From a virus: a stretch of 30,343 nt of DNA. The position numbers and the translations under genes are program-made. The notes below the pieces were generated by a model. The model saw only the letters and a program-made list of their open reading frames with translations, had not been told where the DNA came from and ran no database searches. Position 1 is the stretch's first letter. The number at the start of each line of letters is the position of its first letter. The DNA lies in IMG/VR virus record IMGVR_UViG_3300042465_000166, positions 1 to 30,343 of that record; one strand, written 5' to 3'. Below are positions 22,798 through 30,343 of the stretch, in pieces.

Positions 22798-22836
22798 GTG
22801 ACACAAGTGTATCACACTTTTAATAAAGGCCGTCAA
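22798..22836 (-). promoter_or_regulatory. Minus-strand promoter with operator-like palindrome
   Basis: On the minus strand, TTGACG (22836-22831) and GATACA (22813-22808) are separated by 17 bases, with an extended -10 TG. The sequence GTGATACAC-TT-GTGTCAC (22815-22798), a near-perfect palindrome, overlaps the -10 box and would fit a repressor site. The -35 box lies in the end of the MazG-like gene. Transcription would cover the four small genes 22775 to 21844. Confidence 0.45.
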
Positions 22837-23251
22837 GCACTGGCGGCTGATAATTTGGACCTTTTTTGATCTTGCCGTTGGCGTCACGAATGGGCTGGCC
22901 GTTGTGGTCGAACTTGGACCAGTTGCTGGTGTTCACCCGGTCACAGGCATCGGCTGCTTTCATGCCCGCGCAGTAGGCTGCACCAATGCCGGTGACCACC
23001 TGATCTGCGATGCTGTCAAGGAACTCGTTACGGTCATCAACACGGACTTTCAATTCGCCCAGCTTCAACAGCTTGGACAACACATAGATTTGTGAACGCA
23101 CTTCCTGCCACACCTCCTCATCATCAGTAACGATGGATTGCATCATCTCCTCGATCTCCTCGAAGTGGCATCCAAGCTGCACGTTGAAATCGGCAGCGGT
23201 GGGTTCAGGGCGGGCACGTTTGTGCCAAAGTTCAATTGCTTCAGTGCTCAT
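22820..23251 (-). CDS. MazG / PRA-PH-like nucleotide pyrophosphohydrolase
   Basis: Encodes 143 residues. I take the ATG at 23251 because AAGGAG is seven bases ahead of it; the ATG at 23257 would be only one base away. The helical body has GCHFEEIEEMMQSI (E31, E32, E34, E35) and FLDSIADQVVTGIG (D79, D83), the metal-binding pattern of all-alpha NTP pyrophosphohydrolases. The C-terminal NTSNWSKFDHNGQPIRDANG is typical of phage members. Such enzymes clean or modulate nucleotide pools. It follows the helicase gene directly. Confidence 0.75.
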   Translation of the reverse strand: MSTEAIELWHKRARPEPTAADFNVQLGCHFEEIEEMMQSIVTDDEEVWQEVRSQIYVLSKLLKLGELKVRVDDRNEFLDSIADQVVTGIGAAYCAGMKAADACDRVNTSNWSKFDHNGQPIRDANGKIKKGPNYQPPVLDGLY

Positions 23252-23253
23252 GT

Positions 23254-24660
23254 TCATACTCCTTTGGATTGGCGATATTGTTTGACTGCGTTACGCAGCC
23301 CTGCTTGGGTTGTGGCTTTCTCATCGAGGGCCAGTGCTTGTGCTTGGTCCAGTGTGTCTTGCATCAGGATGCGGTGGCACATTACAGGTGCCCCTTGGCC
23401 CTGACGGCGCACACGGGCGTTGAACTGCTCGTACAGGTCCAGTGACCAGTTGAGGCCATACCACACGAGGATGTGGCCGTTCTTCTGCAAACCGTCAATG
23501 CCGTGTCCCATGCTGGCCGGGTGGCCGATCATCAGGGAGCAGTCACCAGTCTTCCAGCGGTGCATGGCGTTGGTCAGCGATGCTTCGGTCTTGCACTCGG
23601 TCAGGTTGATGGGTCGCAGCGCCTTGAACCTCTCCATGATCCTCTGGGCATCGGACCGGTACGCATAGGCGCACAGGATGGGCGACCCTTGAGCCTCGTC
23701 AATGATGTCCTCCAGCGCGTCCAGCTTCATGTCATGCACCGGCTCCCACAGGGGCATCCCGGCGATCGGGTACATCGCACCGTTGGAGAACTGCAAGCAC
23801 TTGTTTGTGAGAGCCGCTTGGTTGAACGCCTCGATCTCCTTGCCGCTGTCCAGCACCATGAAGAACTCTTTTTCCAGCCTGTCGTACTTGGTCCTCAACT
23901 CGTCAGGCATCTCGATCTCGATGTTGTTGACGATCAGGTCAGGCAGCGGGTTGTAGTCCTCGGCTGACATCTCAAGCGTGATGTCCCCGATCAGCTTCTT
24001 GATGGTGTCCTCGGTGTCCTCGTAGGCCACCTCTTTGTAGGGTCCGACCTTCTTGTAGAACCGGGTGCGAAACGCCGTCTTGCTTGTACCCAGACGTTCA
24101 CCCTTGTCCACCACAAGGAACTGACCGTGCAGGTCTTTGTACCCGTTGCTGGCAGGGGTGCCCGTCAAGCCCGTGGTCCAGTCGAACTGGTCAGCAATCT
24201 TGCGAAACGCCTTGACCCGGTTCGTGGCGCTGTTCTTCATCTTGCTGATTTCGTCCCACACAATGCCGTTGAAGGGCATGGGGCGACCCTTCTTGACGAA
24301 GTATGTTTGCAGCGTTTCAGCAAGCCAGCCGAGGTTCTCGTAGTTCACCATGTAGACATCAGCAGGGCGCAGCAGGGCGCGGGTGCGCTGGTCCTTTGTG
24401 CCTGCGACCATGCTGAACTTGAGGTGCTTGGTGTGTTCCCACTTCGCAGCCTCTTGACGCCACACCAGTCGGATGACTCGGATGGGGGCCACGATGATCA
24501 CACCCCGCAGGAAGCTGGTGCGGATCAGGTGGGCCAGCGTGGTCAAGGTGACCACTGTCTTGCCCAGCCCCATGTCCAGCCACAGCATCGAGTGGGGGTG
24601 CGTGGACTGAAAGTTGACAGCCTTTTGCTGGTAGCCGTGCAGCAAGTCAGGTGTCAGCAT
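23254..24660 (-). CDS. SNF2-type DEAD-box helicase / translocase
   Basis: Encodes 468 residues. RecA-like motifs in order: Walker A DMGLGKT (29-35), Walker B WDEIS (135-139, DEIS in place of DEAH), TGTPASNG (166-173, motif III), and the C-terminal QFNARVRRQGQ (412-422, motif VI with arginine finger). It is a DNA translocase of the short phage SNF2 class, usually in replication modules with VRR-NUC and DUF2800/DUF2815 genes. It overlaps the nuclease gene by seven bases, so the two are probably co-translated and may work together. Confidence 0.9.
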   Translation of the reverse strand: MLTPDLLHGYQQKAVNFQSTHPHSMLWLDMGLGKTVVTLTTLAHLIRTSFLRGVIIVAPIRVIRLVWRQEAAKWEHTKHLKFSMVAGTKDQRTRALLRPADVYMVNYENLGWLAETLQTYFVKKGRPMPFNGIVWDEISKMKNSATNRVKAFRKIADQFDWTTGLTGTPASNGYKDLHGQFLVVDKGERLGTSKTAFRTRFYKKVGPYKEVAYEDTEDTIKKLIGDITLEMSAEDYNPLPDLIVNNIEIEMPDELRTKYDRLEKEFFMVLDSGKEIEAFNQAALTNKCLQFSNGAMYPIAGMPLWEPVHDMKLDALEDIIDEAQGSPILCAYAYRSDAQRIMERFKALRPINLTECKTEASLTNAMHRWKTGDCSLMIGHPASMGHGIDGLQKNGHILVWYGLNWSLDLYEQFNARVRRQGQGAPVMCHRILMQDTLDQAQALALDEKATTQAGLRNAVKQYRQSKGV

Positions 24661-24950
24661 ATACCGTTCTCAATCAGTCCGCACATGGTGTCGATGCACT
24701 CTTTACCGGCGTCTACGTTGTCCACCACGAATACGTTGATCAACTGCTGGCGCAGCCTGTGGTGCTCACGCTCTTGCGCAGGCGTGGCCTTCTGGCCCTC
24801 ACGCTTGAACTCGATGAAGAACACCCGACCGTTCAGGATGAACAGACGATCAGGCACAGCGGCCCGTGCGGGGCTGGTGAACTTGTAAACCATCATGCCC
24901 TTAGTCTTGGCGTAGTCGCAGACCTTGGCCTCAATCTGTTTTTCCAGCAC
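24654..24950 (-). CDS. VRR-NUC domain nuclease
   Basis: Encodes 98 residues from the GTG at 24950, which has GGAG seven bases ahead; a longer reading from 25001 has no support. The PD-(D/E)xK site is clear: VPDRLF (D34), then FFIEFKREG (E47, K49), with TPAQ further on. The family cuts branched or flap DNA and is a usual partner of phage SNF2 helicases. A role in processing replication or recombination intermediates is inferred. Confidence 0.88.
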   Translation of the reverse strand: MLEKQIEAKVCDYAKTKGMMVYKFTSPARAAVPDRLFILNGRVFFIEFKREGQKATPAQEREHHRLRQQLINVFVVDNVDAGKECIDTMCGLIENGIC

Positions 24951-25194
24951 GGCGTGTCTCCAGTTCGATGAGCAATTCGATGTAGTGCTTGGCCTTTTCA
25001 AGATCAGCGATGCCGTTCTTCTTGCGCCAGCGGGAAACGTACTTGATCACGTTACCCTCAAAGTAGCCAATCGCGTTGGCGTAGATGTACTCGACTGGCT
25101 GGATCGGCAGGTCTTTGTAGTGGTTGCCCGCAACCTGTTTGTCCAGTGCGTCAAACGCTTCATCTTCTTCCATCGTCACTTCAAACTGAGACAT
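24931..25194 (-). CDS. DUF3310 protein
   Basis: Encodes 87 residues. After a short acidic start it shows the DUF3310 pattern: ALDKQVAGNHYKDLPIQPVE, then FEGNVIKYVSRWRKKNG and DLEKAKHYIELLIELE. This small helical protein is common in phage replication regions and sometimes listed as a nucleotide kinase, although no kinase motif is present. The function is unproven. It overlaps the polymerase gene by 19 bases and the nuclease gene by 20. Confidence 0.85.
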   Translation of the reverse strand: MSQFEVTMEEDEAFDALDKQVAGNHYKDLPIQPVEYIYANAIGYFEGNVIKYVSRWRKKNGIADLEKAKHYIELLIELETRRAGKTD

Positions 25195-27029
25195 AGTTTC
25201 TCCACTTCTTGAACGTAGTAGTCAAAATCCACTGGCAGCTTGCCAGCATCCTTGATGTCGTTGCAAGGCTGTACACCCCAGCCTGACTCGACGCCAATCT
25301 TTCGCCACTCACCGGGCTTCTTTGCCAGTGGCGGCATCCACTTGAACAGGCGACCACCGCCCTTGGCGATGTAGTAGCGCGTGGTGTTTTGCAACTGCGA
25401 GGTCACGCCGTCACGCTCAATACCCAAGTGACTCGACCGGGGCACTTTGGTGCGCAGCATGAAGTCCATGATGTCAGGCCACTGCTCCACGGTCTGCCTG
25501 ATCGGCGCACCCTCGACCAGCACCTTCTCGGCCACCTTGGCGATCACAAGACCACCGGCGTTCTGGTGCCAGCCCATGTTGTACTCGTATGCGCCCTTAC
25601 GCTTGGTGCTGCCGTTCTCAAACACGCCGATGTAGTTGTTGACATCGCGCACCATCATGGCCTTGTAGACAGCTTCCTCAAGGTTCAACCCTGTGCGCTC
25701 TTGCCATGCCATACGGGCCAGATCGACAAGCACCTTATGGGTGCGGGGTACACGCACGGTCAGGCCGTCAGTGTTCACTTGGATGAGGCGCAGCCCCTCG
25801 ATGTGCATCAACCCCTCGGCCAGCAGGCACAGCAGCAGTTGACCGTTGAGCGTGATCGACATGGTGAACAGCGGGTCGTAGAAGACAGAGAACTGGTTGT
25901 TGCTGTCACCGTACACGCCGTTCAGCGCCAGCTTGAGCATCGCGCTTTCTGCTGACTTCTTGGGGTACGACTTGCGCTGCTCAAACAGAAATTTGTAGAT
26001 GCTTACGAAATCCTTGCCCAGATGTGCAGGATGAAAACCGTTAGTGATAGCCAGATTGGGATAGTAAGAAGTGACATCGAGATCCACAATGACATACTGA
26101 TCATCAGACTCGATGACTTCCGACTCGACACTTCCATGAATGCCACCCAGACCAAACACAAAAGTAAAACCGTTGACAGTTGCAGTAAGGTCATTGAAGA
26201 CTCCTTTGGTTTCGGTGATTGACTGAGCCTTGAGCCAGTTCAACACTCGGGTGAACTCGGGGTCATCGAACTTGATCCACGGCAGTATGGCGTCCTTGAG
26301 GTGGATCACCGGGCGCTTGGTCTGCCGGGGTGTGCGGCCCTTGGAGCCAAAGTCGTAGCAGGCGACACCAGCTTCTTCCAGCTTCATGACGAAGTAGTCT
26401 TTGCCGATCTTGGTGTCGTTGTGGTTCATGAAGTCACGCTGGTACTTGCGCGTGAGTTCTTCACGAAAGTGGATCATGTCAAGCGTGTGGTGATAGAACG
26501 CCTTGGTCTGCGCCACATCGTGCTTGTTGTACTCCTTGAGCACTTCGATTTGCTCACGGTTCAGGACAGTGCCCACGGGGAACGGCAGATCTTCAATGCT
26601 GTCCGATCTCATGTTGAACTCCAGCACTTTGAGGCTGGTGGACCGTGCGCGGTTGTCAAAGTGATGAATCTTGAACAGGTCGATCTGAGTCACGAACTGG
26701 TCAGTGGGCTTGACGAGGTGCATCCACCTGCTGCCGTCTTCATCCTGCGAGTTGATGATCGCCATTGCCTTTTGGTACAGCGTGTTGGCATCGCTGTGAC
26801 CCATGCGGATCAGGGTATGCACCACGGGGTAATCGAACCCCAAGTTGTTAAAGCCGACCATGCGTGAGTCGGTGTCCTTGAGGAACTGGAGGAACTCAAC
26901 GATCTGGCGGCTGTCATTGCGTAGGTCACTGATCTCGAACATCCAGTGCAGAGGTGCTTCTGCGTGTTCCACTGCCAGCGTGAACACGTTGGGATAGGTT
27001 TCCACATCGAATACATAATCATTGCGCAT
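25176..27029 (-). CDS. Family B DNA polymerase with 3'-5' exonuclease
   Basis: Replicates the phage genome. Encodes 617 residues from the ATG at 27029, chosen for GGAG seven bases ahead. The exonuclease motifs are FDVET (D8, E10), FNNLGFDYP (N62, D66) and YNKHD (Y167, D171). Polymerase motif A is DVTSYYP (D318), motif B is KLALNGVYG (366-374), and motif C is VNTDG (D421). Motif C is NTD in place of the usual DTD. The length is short for family B, without large insertions. It overlaps the HNH gene by 11 bases. Confidence 0.9.
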   Translation of the reverse strand: MRNDYVFDVETYPNVFTLAVEHAEAPLHWMFEISDLRNDSRQIVEFLQFLKDTDSRMVGFNNLGFDYPVVHTLIRMGHSDANTLYQKAMAIINSQDEDGSRWMHLVKPTDQFVTQIDLFKIHHFDNRARSTSLKVLEFNMRSDSIEDLPFPVGTVLNREQIEVLKEYNKHDVAQTKAFYHHTLDMIHFREELTRKYQRDFMNHNDTKIGKDYFVMKLEEAGVACYDFGSKGRTPRQTKRPVIHLKDAILPWIKFDDPEFTRVLNWLKAQSITETKGVFNDLTATVNGFTFVFGLGGIHGSVESEVIESDDQYVIVDLDVTSYYPNLAITNGFHPAHLGKDFVSIYKFLFEQRKSYPKKSAESAMLKLALNGVYGDSNNQFSVFYDPLFTMSITLNGQLLLCLLAEGLMHIEGLRLIQVNTDGLTVRVPRTHKVLVDLARMAWQERTGLNLEEAVYKAMMVRDVNNYIGVFENGSTKRKGAYEYNMGWHQNAGGLVIAKVAEKVLVEGAPIRQTVEQWPDIMDFMLRTKVPRSSHLGIERDGVTSQLQNTTRYYIAKGGGRLFKWMPPLAKKPGEWRKIGVESGWGVQPCNDIKDAGKLPVDFDYYVQEVEKLCLSLK

Positions 27030-27444
27030 ATTTTTTCTCCGACCAGCAATTTGGCTTCGGAGGGTATGTGTAGCCACCATCGGTGCGCCCTTCACACCAT
27101 GCTTTGACTCTGCTGACTGTCACACCAACGGCGGCAGCGGCTTCGCTCAAACTGGCGTAACGTGCGCCGTCAATGACCCACCATTTACTGAGTCGGGTGT
27201 TTTGCATTTGTGGTTTCTTCTCAACCCAGTGGCAGTTCTCTTTCGAGTAACCCTTGGTGTTGTTGCGCCGGTCAAGTTGATGCTTGGCGCTTGGTCGCAA
27301 ACCCATGTCTGCAACGAATCTCGCAAAGTCGTTCCATTCATCGCACACCGAAATGTCAATGTAGTAAATGGCGTTGTGACCATGTGGGTTGTTGCATCTT
27401 TGACGCATGTTGACCCATGCGATGTATTCAGGTGTTTTACTCAT
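27019..27444 (-). CDS. HNH homing-type endonuclease
   Basis: Encodes 141 residues. The conserved frame is YIAWVNMRQRCNNP, then VCDEWNDFARF, DMGLRPS, HQLDRRNN (H55, D58, N61), GYSKENCHWV (N70, C71, W73) and QNTRLS. The C-terminal part (about 97-118, SLSEAAAAVGVTVSRVKAW) is a helix-turn-helix that probably binds DNA. Free-standing genes of this kind are mobile and often sit next to polymerase genes. The ribosome site is weak (GGTAACCGTA). It overlaps the polymerase start by 11 bases. An inverted repeat lies just upstream. Confidence 0.85.
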   Translation of the reverse strand: MSKTPEYIAWVNMRQRCNNPHGHNAIYYIDISVCDEWNDFARFVADMGLRPSAKHQLDRRNNTKGYSKENCHWVEKKPQMQNTRLSKWWVIDGARYASLSEAAAAVGVTVSRVKAWCEGRTDGGYTYPPKPNCWSEKKYAQ

Positions 27445-27515: not shown

Positions 27516-28202
27516 TTACTGGCTCAGAAATGAAGGAAGACCGACTTGCGCCGCAAACGGCGCAGCAGGCATCGCAGGCGAACCTTGAGGCGCAGCGCCG
27601 AACATACCAGCAGGAGCGCCCGCCACCGCACCAAACAAGTTAGACGCATCAACGGCTCCTTCACCGAATGGGGTATCGTCACCAGCAAACTGCACAGCAA
27701 TCAGATCGCAGCGGATGCCACGGCCATGCTTGTTGTCCTGCGGCCAAGGCTTGATCGCAGCGTTGACACGGCAACCGCCGTACATCTTGCGGGCCAACTG
27801 CTGATACGCCATCGTGTTGGTGGGGTCGATGGGTGTGCCATCGGCTTGGATCATCTGAGGCGCGGTGTCGCGGCCTGCGGTGATGAACACATGGCCTGCG
27901 TAGCCATCGTAGGGCTGGAAGGTTTTCTTGTTGACCTTCTCCTCACCACGGCCAAAGCAGCGGGTCTTGCGATCCTGCTGGATCATGCCCATGACAGCTT
28001 GAGCGTGTTCCTTCCACTTGTCCAGCGCCAAGGCACCGTAGCGGGCCATGAACTGAGCGAAGCCGGGGTGGCTCTCAGGCATGATGAACTCGCAGTTGTA
28101 CGAGATGCGTTCCTTACCGGTCTGCTCATTGATCTGGCGCTGTGGTTCAGCGAGATGTGGAAAGGACAGACGGACGTTCGACAAAAAGATGATTTCAGAC
28201 AT
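27516..28202 (-). CDS. Single-stranded DNA-binding protein, DUF2815
   Basis: Coats single-stranded DNA during replication. Encodes 228 residues. The leader CTGGAGTAAATGTA is just before the ATG. The core matches DUF2815 (gp2.5-like OB fold): VRLSFPHLAEPQRQ, YNCEFIMPESHP, FGRGEEKVNKKTFQPYDGY and GCRVNAAIKPWPQDNKHGRG. The C-terminal 50 residues are a Gly/Ala/Pro-rich linker ending in LPSFLSQ, without the acidic tail typical of T7 gp2.5. Confidence 0.88.
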   Translation of the reverse strand: MSEIIFLSNVRLSFPHLAEPQRQINEQTGKERISYNCEFIMPESHPGFAQFMARYGALALDKWKEHAQAVMGMIQQDRKTRCFGRGEEKVNKKTFQPYDGYAGHVFITAGRDTAPQMIQADGTPIDPTNTMAYQQLARKMYGGCRVNAAIKPWPQDNKHGRGIRCDLIAVQFAGDDTPFGEGAVDASNLFGAVAGAPAGMFGAAPQGSPAMPAAPFAAQVGLPSFLSQ

Positions 28203-28220: not shown

Positions 28221-29072
28221 TTACGATTGTGCGAGTTGATGATCTCGCGGGACTTTGAAACCAGCGGCGCGGACATGACCGCCACCGCCGTACTGCTTTG
28301 CGATCTCGCTTACATCAAGACCGCTTTCTTCACTACGCAATCCGAACACGCGCCCTTCGGCAGTGTCCCAATAACAAGCGGAGAACTTTTCACCCTTTGC
28401 CATTAAATGACCGGCATCGCTGCCCATCACGTAAGGCAAAGAAGCAACGGGTACATCGTACCCACCTATGACCATGCGGCGCTTGCAAACGCCCACCAAT
28501 TCAGCAACGTCTTTGTGGTGTTTACGCTCGATTGCTGCACCCGCTGCTGTCATTTTCAACAACTCAATTTGATCAGCAGACATCAGCTTGTCCCACAGTT
28601 GAAAACTGTACTCATGGGAGAACACAAATGCCTGAATCTCACGGGTGCCTGCCAACTTGAAGCGCCACAGATCACGGTCTTCGACATGCCCGAGCAATAA
28701 GGGACGATCTTCATCGGGGAACAAGTAGTCCCACGCTAAAGTTGCGCCGCTGCGATTCAAGTCAGTGAAATGAGCCAACTGTTTTGGTTCACCCATCCAA
28801 CTGTCTTGCATGAACAATGGTTGCAAGTCATCAATCGCTGACTTGTGATGGTCGATCAATGTGACGGTGTTTGCAACAGTCAACATTTGCTCAACGACTT
28901 GACGTTTGTAACTGAAATCAACCAGATATACATCGCGCCCAGTCACATCAGGAGGGTCTTGCTGGTACACGCCTGCGTGGTAATCAGCACCCTCACCGTA
29001 TTTGCGCCAAAAACACCATGCAGCACTGAATCCGTCAGCACAGTTGCCGTGATAAATCACCAATGGTTTCAT
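28221..29072 (-). CDS. DHH-family phosphoesterase (nanoRNase/RecJ-like)
   Basis: Encodes 283 residues. I take the ATG at 29072, with GGGAGG about six bases ahead; a longer reading from 29093 would include that site. The motifs are HGNCADGFSAAW (D13), YLVDFS (D52), LIDHHKS (D74, H75, H76), and the DHHA1 signature GGGGHVRAAGF (about 262-272). These enzymes remove short RNA or cyclic dinucleotide substrates, or act as 5'-exonucleases. The exact substrate is not shown. It overlaps the DUF2800 stop by four bases (ATGA). Confidence 0.85.
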   Translation of the reverse strand: MKPLVIYHGNCADGFSAAWCFWRKYGEGADYHAGVYQQDPPDVTGRDVYLVDFSYKRQVVEQMLTVANTVTLIDHHKSAIDDLQPLFMQDSWMGEPKQLAHFTDLNRSGATLAWDYLFPDEDRPLLLGHVEDRDLWRFKLAGTREIQAFVFSHEYSFQLWDKLMSADQIELLKMTAAGAAIERKHHKDVAELVGVCKRRMVIGGYDVPVASLPYVMGSDAGHLMAKGEKFSACYWDTAEGRVFGLRSEESGLDVSEIAKQYGGGGHVRAAGFKVPRDHQLAQS

Positions 29073-30343
29073 GATGCACCTCCCATGAGCCATGACGGCA
29101 GGGATTCGGCAGCGGGTGCTGCTTCTACTGCGCTAAACAGCGGCGCAACATTCATGATGACAGCCGGACGGCCATCGGATTCAGGGACCACGGTCAGTTT
29201 GCCCGCCAACTTACTGACGTACTCCTGCTCCATGCGTTTAAGTTGGCGCTCGGTCAACGTTACCTTAGTGCCGTCTTTCTTCTCCCACGTCAGCTTCTCA
29301 GCTTTGGCGGGTGTGACGAGTTTGGTTTCGTAGATCGCGCCCTTGGGGATGCCCATCTTGACCAGCTTCTCGGCCATCTCGGCTTCAGGGAGTGCCCAAG
29401 CGCGGGAGCCGCGACCGTTGACCAGTTTGAGGCCGGGGATCGAGATGCCTGACTCCATGCGGCGCATGGCTTCTTTTTCCACCGCTTCGAGGAGTTGGCG
29501 CATCAGGGGTGCAGCTTCCATGATCTGACGGATCTGGGCATCGTCCATCTGGGCCGGGTCTTTATCGGCAGATTGCTGCGCGACATCGAGTGTTTCGGTT
29601 ACGACTGGCTGGAACATGATTCCTACCTCCTTCATTACGTTACCTGCCAGCGCAGAGCATGAACCCTTGGCACGGCAGAATTTACATTGACTTTCACCCG
29701 GTACAAGCGGTGCATCTGGTTTGTCAGTTGCAGCAGCTTGAGCGATGATTGTACCCATGTTGTCGAGCAAAGACTTCACGGTGACATCGTGCGATGTGAT
29801 GGCAGGCATCCCACGCAGCGCCAGCTTAGGCTGGATGATCGTCATGCGAACTGTGCTGAACGGGTATTGACCATTGACGGGTAACCGCAGTCGGGCCAGC
29901 ACCCCGTAGGCGTACTGTTCAAGCTGCAAGTTACCTTCGGCTGACACCACGCCCATGCCGTCTTTGTAGTCAATCAACTCAAGAAAATCAGGTCCAAGAA
30001 TCTGGCAGTCCACAGTGCCCGACAGGTCATCACGACCCAGCAGGAACTCGGGGTTTACCTTTTGCTCAGAGATGACCGGGAACAAACCGTTTACTGAACG
30101 CTCACGAATGTAGTCAAGAGCCAATTGGACACGAATCGCACGTTCACCAGTCACTATGAACTCACCTTCGTGATCTTTCAATGTGTCAAAAACAAACTTG
30201 TCTGCACTTTTGCCAGTCTTGATGCAGTGCTCAAGCAGCGTGTGCGAGTGTGTGCCATCGGCAGCAGCGGGGCCGCTACCGGTGTCAGGGTACTTGGCCT
30301 CCTCTCGAATGCTGCCGGGGCACAAGGCCCAGCGGCTGCGCTT
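29069..30343 (-). CDS. DUF2800 nuclease-like protein (5' end off window)
   Basis: The frame is open to the window end, and the residues just before the internal TTG at 30325 (RWALCPGS) match the usual start of the family, so the gene continues beyond the window. Visible parts are GTHSHTLLEHC, LSGTVDCQIL, LELIDYKDG (E/D-x-K pattern of Cas4/RecB-like nucleases), LQLEQYAYG, and a Cys pair CKFCRAKGSC that with a further Cys may bind an Fe-S cluster or zinc. It belongs to the DUF2800 class, common with DUF2815 in phage replication modules. The C-terminal part is helical and binds an unknown partner. Confidence 0.85.
   Translation of the reverse strand, partial: KRSRWALCPGSIREEAKYPDTGSGPAAADGTHSHTLLEHCIKTGKSADKFVFDTLKDHEGEFIVTGERAIRVQLALDYIRERSVNGLFPVISEQKVNPEFLLGRDDLSGTVDCQILGPDFLELIDYKDGMGVVSAEGNLQLEQYAYGVLARLRLPVNGQYPFSTVRMTIIQPKLALRGMPAITSHDVTVKSLLDNMGTIIAQAAATDKPDAPLVPGESQCKFCRAKGSCSALAGNVMKEVGIMFQPVVTETLDVAQQSADKDPAQMDDAQIRQIMEAAPLMRQLLEAVEKEAMRRMESGISIPGLKLVNGRGSRAWALPEAEMAEKLVKMGIPKGAIYETKLVTPAKAEKLTWEKKDGTKVTLTERQLKRMEQEYVSKLAGKLTVVPESDGRPAVIMNVAPLFSAVEAAPAAESLPSWLMGGAS

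Follow-up and report, generated by a model that had tools for sequence, protein, structure and literature searches.

A phage family B DNA polymerase with NTD in motif C, in a replication module that carries either PolA or PolB

The replication cluster and its polymerase

The window, a 30,343-base virus record, contains a cluster of replication genes, all of them on the minus strand. A gene for a DUF2800/PD-(D/E)XK exonuclease (29069-30343) is open at the window edge (Pfam DUF2800, E = 8.1e-60; PDDEXK_1, E = 1.3e-6; PHROG 69, exonuclease). A DHH phosphoesterase gene (28221-29093; PHROG 4771, E = 1.4e-102) lies between this gene and that of a DUF2815-like ssDNA-binding/annealing protein of the Enc34_ssDNA-bd type (27516-28202; Pfam PF10991, E = 4e-18; PHROG 112). 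These are followed by a free-standing HNH endonuclease (27019-27444; PHROG 3377, HNH endonuclease, E = 1e-30), the DNA polymerase (25176-27029) and a DUF3310 protein, the 'nucleotide kinase' of the PHROGs (24931-25194; Pfam PF11753, E = 3.1e-12; PHROG 236). A VRR-NUC-like nuclease (24654-24956; PHROG 93, endonuclease, E = 5.4e-27; Pfam VRR_NUC at 0.017, below the cut-off) and a SNF2-type helicase/ATPase (23254-24660; Pfam SNF2-rel_dom, E = 1.5e-19; PHROG 62) come next, with a MazG-like nucleotide pyrophosphohydrolase as the downstream neighbour (22820-23257; PHROG 671, E = 1.6e-28; no Pfam match over the cut-off). The DUF2800, DUF2815, VRR-NUC and SNF2 partners named by the first-pass annotation are therefore all recovered by Pfam and PHROG, VRR-NUC with a weak Pfam signal; the HNH and DHH genes, which also lie inside the cluster, were absent from it. 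Judged from this co-location, the polymerase would work together with the ssDNA-binding protein, the exonuclease, the VRR-like nuclease and the SNF2 helicase.

The HNH gene overlaps the start of the polymerase gene by 11 bases. Of 162 close loci, a figure that counts some contigs twice, 12 have a match to it, directly upstream of the polymerase in all ten listed, and the gene is possibly an intronless homing element. The DHH gene had no match in any of the 141 close loci that possess both DUF2800 and ssDNA-binding neighbours. In 172 close loci the matches to the ssDNA-binding protein and to the polymerase are separated by as little as 45 and as much as about 1,100 bases, so this region upstream of the polymerase seems to accommodate variable genes.

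The polymerase gene starts with an ATG at 27029 and stops at 25176, with the open frame reaching back to a GTG at 27095. The bases before the ATG, ...GGTCGGAGAAAAAAT, are a plausible ribosome-binding site. The protein, of 617 amino acids, begins with MRNDYVFDVETYPN and comprises 3'-5' exonuclease and polymerase domains. It contains the residues D8/E10, N61/D66 and Y167/D171, which we take to be exonuclease motifs I-III, followed by D318-VTSYYP, presumably motif A (DxxSxYP), by K366/N370/G374, presumably motif B (KxxxNxxxG), and by N419-T-D421-G, which we read as motif C (VNTDG at residues 418-422). The family B motifs, the complete exonuclease motifs and the VNTDG sequence that had been pointed out earlier are all present in the open reading frame.

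Membership of family B is not apparent from Pfam. No Pfam PolB family matches the window protein above its cut-off, PF00136 is without a match in the whole record, and the sole polymerase-related Pfam family to appear is PF10108, a PolB-related exonuclease, at E = 3e-4 (21 bits, with a cut-off of 24). PF00136 and PF03175 do not match the window protein, and at E <= 0.01 they match 6 and 4 of 52 homologues, respectively. The match to the PHROG 1252 'DNA polymerase' family is far above chance (E = 4.5e-189; residues 2-612 against 52-647 of 663). A profile built from the 52 homologues (A2) has 112 distinct matches among PDB sequences at E <= 10, with a KOD-type PolB as the best (E = 1.5e-11) and the KOD-type DTDG standing opposite NTDG in the alignment. 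The best 60 of these 112 matches are DNA polymerases, presumably of family B, going by their names.

The AlphaFold2 model of the protein (mean pLDDT 95.2, pTM 0.91) leads to the same placement. Foldseek gave a best E of 2.1e-16, and VIA-align superimposed residues 1-617 of the model on KOD residues 134-748 (Z 16.2, rmsd 6.0, 465 residues); in the VIA-align alignment no counterpart was seen for the part of KOD before residue 134. The 50 Foldseek and 50 VIA-align matches listed are all, as we take them, family B DNA polymerases, one title (9leb) being unspecific. The window protein is hence a family B polymerase, by its right-hand fold with an exonuclease domain and by its sequence-profile relation, as the first-pass annotation had proposed. 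A family A enzyme or an unknown fold is rejected, as the A2 profile against PDB sequences, Foldseek and VIA-align all led to PolB.

Asparagine in motif C across the phage homologues

Homologues of the polymerase are widespread. In a tblastn search the polymerase was found in 948 of 50,697 phage records, with 748 covering at least 80% of the query, and the 80 loci kept from IMG/VR have polymerases of 85-98% identity. The most distant homologues are about 22% identical. BLAST or peptide patterns outside motif C were used to collect the PolB loci, so that a count of N-T-D among them is not circular. The first 96 loci read NTDG in 95 cases and NTDA in one. A profile alignment of 349 loci, in which 335 open reading frames were matched, has N-T-D in all 315 with letters at motif C (313 NTDG, one NTDS and one NTDA), corresponding to 240 of 240 distinct open reading frames. 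After further loci had been added, N-T-D was present in 248 of 248 distinct open reading frames with letters at motif C; 20 without such letters were dropped from each N-T-D count, and in the alignment of the first profile the 11 of 230 lacking them were fragments and the open reading frame of GP55.

The invariance of N419 equals that of D318 and D421. D8, E10, D66, D171, K366 and N370 are likewise invariant in the homologues, and Y167 and G374 are also kept. The second Asp of motif C, which had been noted as retained in the window enzyme, is thus retained throughout. The suggestion that NTD is a peculiarity of this one enzyme did not hold up, and with NTD invariant in the homologues that have letters there, nothing suggests that the window enzyme in particular would differ in fidelity or metal use. 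NTD is instead the mark of a large branch of phage family B polymerases, comprising PHROG 1252 and its kin and reaching the crAss-like phages, and is carried by every member examined. The homologues with NTD include those of crAss-like phages, Nonagvirus, Sashavirus, Kilunavirus, Barbavirus and phages of Leuconostoc and Enterococcus. An exception is GP55 of phage 1706, a distant relative that does not belong to the core family, which reads KTDS.

The best tblastn match is the polymerase of phage DSL-LC05 (OR003940), which is 91.6% identical to that of the window over its full length and has NTDG. DSL-LC05 has a circular genome of 37.6 kb and comes from a lake metagenome; PMC10611076 proposes the family name 'Luchaoviridae' for it. 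Its cluster resembles that of the window in having a RecB exonuclease, SSB, PolB, 'nucleotide kinase', nuclease and SNF2 protein, but has neither an HNH nor a DHH gene annotated in it. More distant polymerases with NTDG, at 47-54% identity in alignment A1, are those of Salmonella phage Sasha, Edwardsiella phage MSW-3, Vibrio phage 1.046.O and Rheinheimera phage Barba30A, whose gene neighbourhoods are partly unlike that of the window. The polymerase of crAss-like phage cr1_1 is also a homologue with NTDG, although only 26% identical, and relates the family to the crAss-like PolB group of Kazlauskas et al. (2020, PMC7544198).

A search of the open-licence literature for 'NTDG' with 'DNA polymerase' and 'phage' gave no match. 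The Asn may well already stand in the motif figure of PMC7544198, since its text, in the part concerned with crAss-like phages, says that motif C and KxY of the crAss-like PolB group differ profoundly. What is provided here are numbers for an Asn in place of the first motif C Asp across a large phage family B branch.

As an observation on gene structure, a T5orf172-type gene separates the two pieces in which the homologous polymerase of Klebsiella phage FZ14 (L087, 4878-7682) is annotated, and KpV79 and Flavobacterium phage Fpv20 likewise have two polymerase pieces and an endonuclease.

Exchange of PolA and PolB within one module

The gene order of exonuclease, SSB, polymerase, nuclease and SNF2-type helicase seen in the window is also that of Chivirus 118970_sal1, whose DUF2800, Enc34 SSB and SNF2 assignments are confirmed by Pfam, and of Bordetella phage BPP-1, where small genes lie between the shared genes. 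In contrast to the window, both have a family A polymerase (PF00476). According to the first-pass annotation, modules with these partners usually carry family A, and the loci agree: the 160 fetched by BPP-1-like or PS6-like SNF2 helicases comprise 122 with PolA, 7 with PolB and 31 with neither in the stretch covered, so that PolA occupies 122 of 129 classifiable loci. The labels were assigned by profiles within at most 8 kb on each side, which left these 31 of 160 unclassified, and the PolA profile had no match at 1e-8 in loci classed as PolB.

The window's own lineage is different. Among 60 newly fetched SNF2-centred loci, which exclude 20 already obtained by the PolB search, 52 have PolB, none PolA and 8 neither. 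The 63 new DUF2800-centred loci also have no PolA, with 51 PolB and 12 under the threshold (three of these 12 having a PolB fragment at a contig end). No recent swap from PolA to PolB was found among the window's close relatives in these two sets. A family B enzyme with these partners, presented earlier as an unusual combination, is therefore common in related phages as far as the window's own lineage is concerned (52 of 60 loci, and the same cluster in DSL-LC05), and as no PolA was found there, the exchange in this lineage is old.

Across the wider module, the earlier proposal of a polymerase exchange among conserved neighbours is borne out by gene order and by the SNF2 tree. Locus L353 has PolA and loci L354 and L380 have PolB, yet all three are syntenic with BPP-1 in the order exonuclease, SSB, polymerase, VRR, SNF2, and identity to the BPP-1 SNF2 protein is 81% in L353, 76% in L354 and 78% in L380. 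The BPP-1-like clusters from IMG/VR thus differ, in L354 and L380 versus L353 and L223, by PolA or PolB in one slot. For a tree of SNF2 proteins, 218 rows were thinned at 75% identity within each label to 80 (49 PolA and 31 PolB). This tree requires at least seven changes between the PolA and PolB labels, and strongly supported branches force four of these. When the labels were shuffled, the mean was 24.9 changes, and none of 500 shuffles was as low as seven. The labels are hence clustered, given so few changes relative to the shuffles, but with at least seven they switch repeatedly. Searches with the polymerase supplied the loci of 23 of the 31 PolB rows and searches with SNF2 those of 6; the window and PS6 make up the remainder. 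The SNF2 and PolB trees were both made by a quick method with SH-aLRT only, and the SNF2 tree is unrooted.

The window's SNF2 protein groups with those of four PolB loci at an SH-aLRT of 100, and the window's own exchange must therefore predate that group. In the PolB tree (85 of 303 rows) the window enzyme is found among Sashavirus-like enzymes, whereas L354, L380 and L428 are in another large group, so that the module contains enzymes from more than one branch of the NTD family. The label 'M' in this tree denotes a SNF2 match in the fetched stretch, and the label 'n' can be a miss; a long-branch warning applies to L094-L097 and L207, with L095 meeting L096.

The polymerase slot has been exchanged repeatedly within the module. 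Situated between the ssDNA-binding protein and the nuclease, it contains PolA in most related phages and PolB in the window's lineage, and the tree and the gene order show in-place exchange of the polymerase, whichever its direction, to be the cause of this alternation. The opposite polarity, in which the module ancestrally had PolB, PolA modules are derived and the window's lineage has simply kept the old polymerase, draws on the fact that change counts on an unrooted SNF2 tree cannot separate gain from loss. We consider it unlikely; it would alter the direction alone, as at least seven label changes are needed either way.

In-place exchange of PolA and PolB in tailed phages with conserved neighbourhoods has been described in the swapping section of Yutin et al. 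(2024, PMC11348598). The PolB cases in Table 1 of that paper include Marinobacter phage PS6 and Vibrio phage 1.089.O, and the clades include Sashavirus and Barbavirus. The polymerases of PS6 and 1.089.O, whose genomes are MF959998 and MG592464 in that table, share 45% and 48% identity with their homologue in the window. The phenomenon, with homologues of the window polymerase, is therefore already in print. The section on swapping of PMC11348598 names neither the DSL-LC05-like nor the BPP-1-like lineages. Relative to the sections of the prior literature covered here, the new elements are the DSL-LC05-like lineage, the pairs of BPP-1-like clusters and the tally for the Asn. One replication module can take PolA or PolB in place, and the BPP-1-like phages offer a close pair in which to study the exchange.

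Probable catalysis with Asn in motif C

The first Asp of motif C is usual in family B without being a defining feature. In RB69 it is part of the catalytic triad D411, D621 and D623, according to the passage concerned in PMC3792054. It is absent in B2, PolB_SITDG and primer-independent PolBs (piPolBs), and polymerisation by piPolBs is nonetheless highly efficient, as stated in the description of these groups in PMC7544198, from which the piPolBs are known here. GP55 of lactococcal phage 1706, a family B enzyme also without the first Asp, is reported in the pertinent part of PMC12205980 to perform primer extension at 1.25 nM and to have proofreading potential. By analogy with GP55 (KTDS) and the piPolBs, both reported as active, loss of the first motif C Asp appears compatible with activity. 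GP55 and the piPolBs are distant from the window enzyme; GP55 has a Lys rather than an Asn, and in contrast to the window polymerase it is fused to helicase and primase domains.

Among the literature matches listed, none was recognised as a biochemical study of a polymerase from this family, and we therefore infer the activity of the window polymerase. An active proofreading replicase would be by far the likeliest, because the exonuclease motifs are intact and the gene sits in a replication cluster. Ordinary two-metal catalysis would be most likely, with D318 of motif A and D421 of motif C as the metal ligands, and the first position of motif C, usually an Asp, would need no carboxylate here. 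Overall, we hold with considerable confidence that the window encodes the replicative, proofreading family B polymerase of a tailed phage related to DSL-LC05, a member of the NTD branch with presumed two-metal catalysis, in a slot exchanged in place, long ago in this lineage.

What the Asn itself does can be read in several ways. A single base change is sufficient to turn Asp into Asn, and a recent mutation or a sequencing error in one phage might thus be suspected; with N-T-D in all 248 distinct homologous open reading frames that have letters at motif C, this is hardly credible and is rejected, NTD being family-wide. It is very improbable, too, that the Asn marks a weakened or specialised polymerase for translesion or damage-tolerant synthesis. 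The model for such an enzyme is crenarchaeal PolB2/Dpo2, which lacks the first Asp of YGDTDS, has low primer extension and is assigned a role in damage tolerance in the relevant parts of PMC7390963 and PMC7544198. The same parts describe Dpo2/B2 as being without a recognisable proofreading domain, whereas the exonuclease motifs are invariant in the window's family. The window gene also occupies the main-polymerase slot of a replication cluster, in a lineage in which no PolA was found. A translesion enzyme of the PolB2 type is disfavoured, the exonuclease motifs being intact rather than degenerate or absent.

More weight can be given, tentatively, to the Asn being a selected trait of the whole branch, in which a replicative proofreading site operates without the first carboxylate and the Asn itself has a fixed role. 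It may, for example, set metal preference or nucleotide acceptance, or provide escape from polymerase-directed host defences. If the Asn does have a role of its own, the branch would represent a natural experiment on the number of carboxylates that a replicative polymerase needs. Alternatively, D316, which precedes the motif A Asp by two residues, could compensate for the lost motif C Asp and restore a third carboxylate. Compensation by a nearby Asp has been proposed for archaeal B2 polymerases in the corresponding part of PMC7544198. Of the 242 distinct open reading frames of the window's family with letters at position 316, 229 have D and 2 have E, and in the AlphaFold2 model D316 and D318 are on one predicted strand (312-319). 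We regard such compensation as unlikely, however, as the remaining 11 carry a different residue at position 316 (S, L, T, M, N or Q) and yet keep NTD, and GP55 has a Leu at the matching position in an alignment read by eye.
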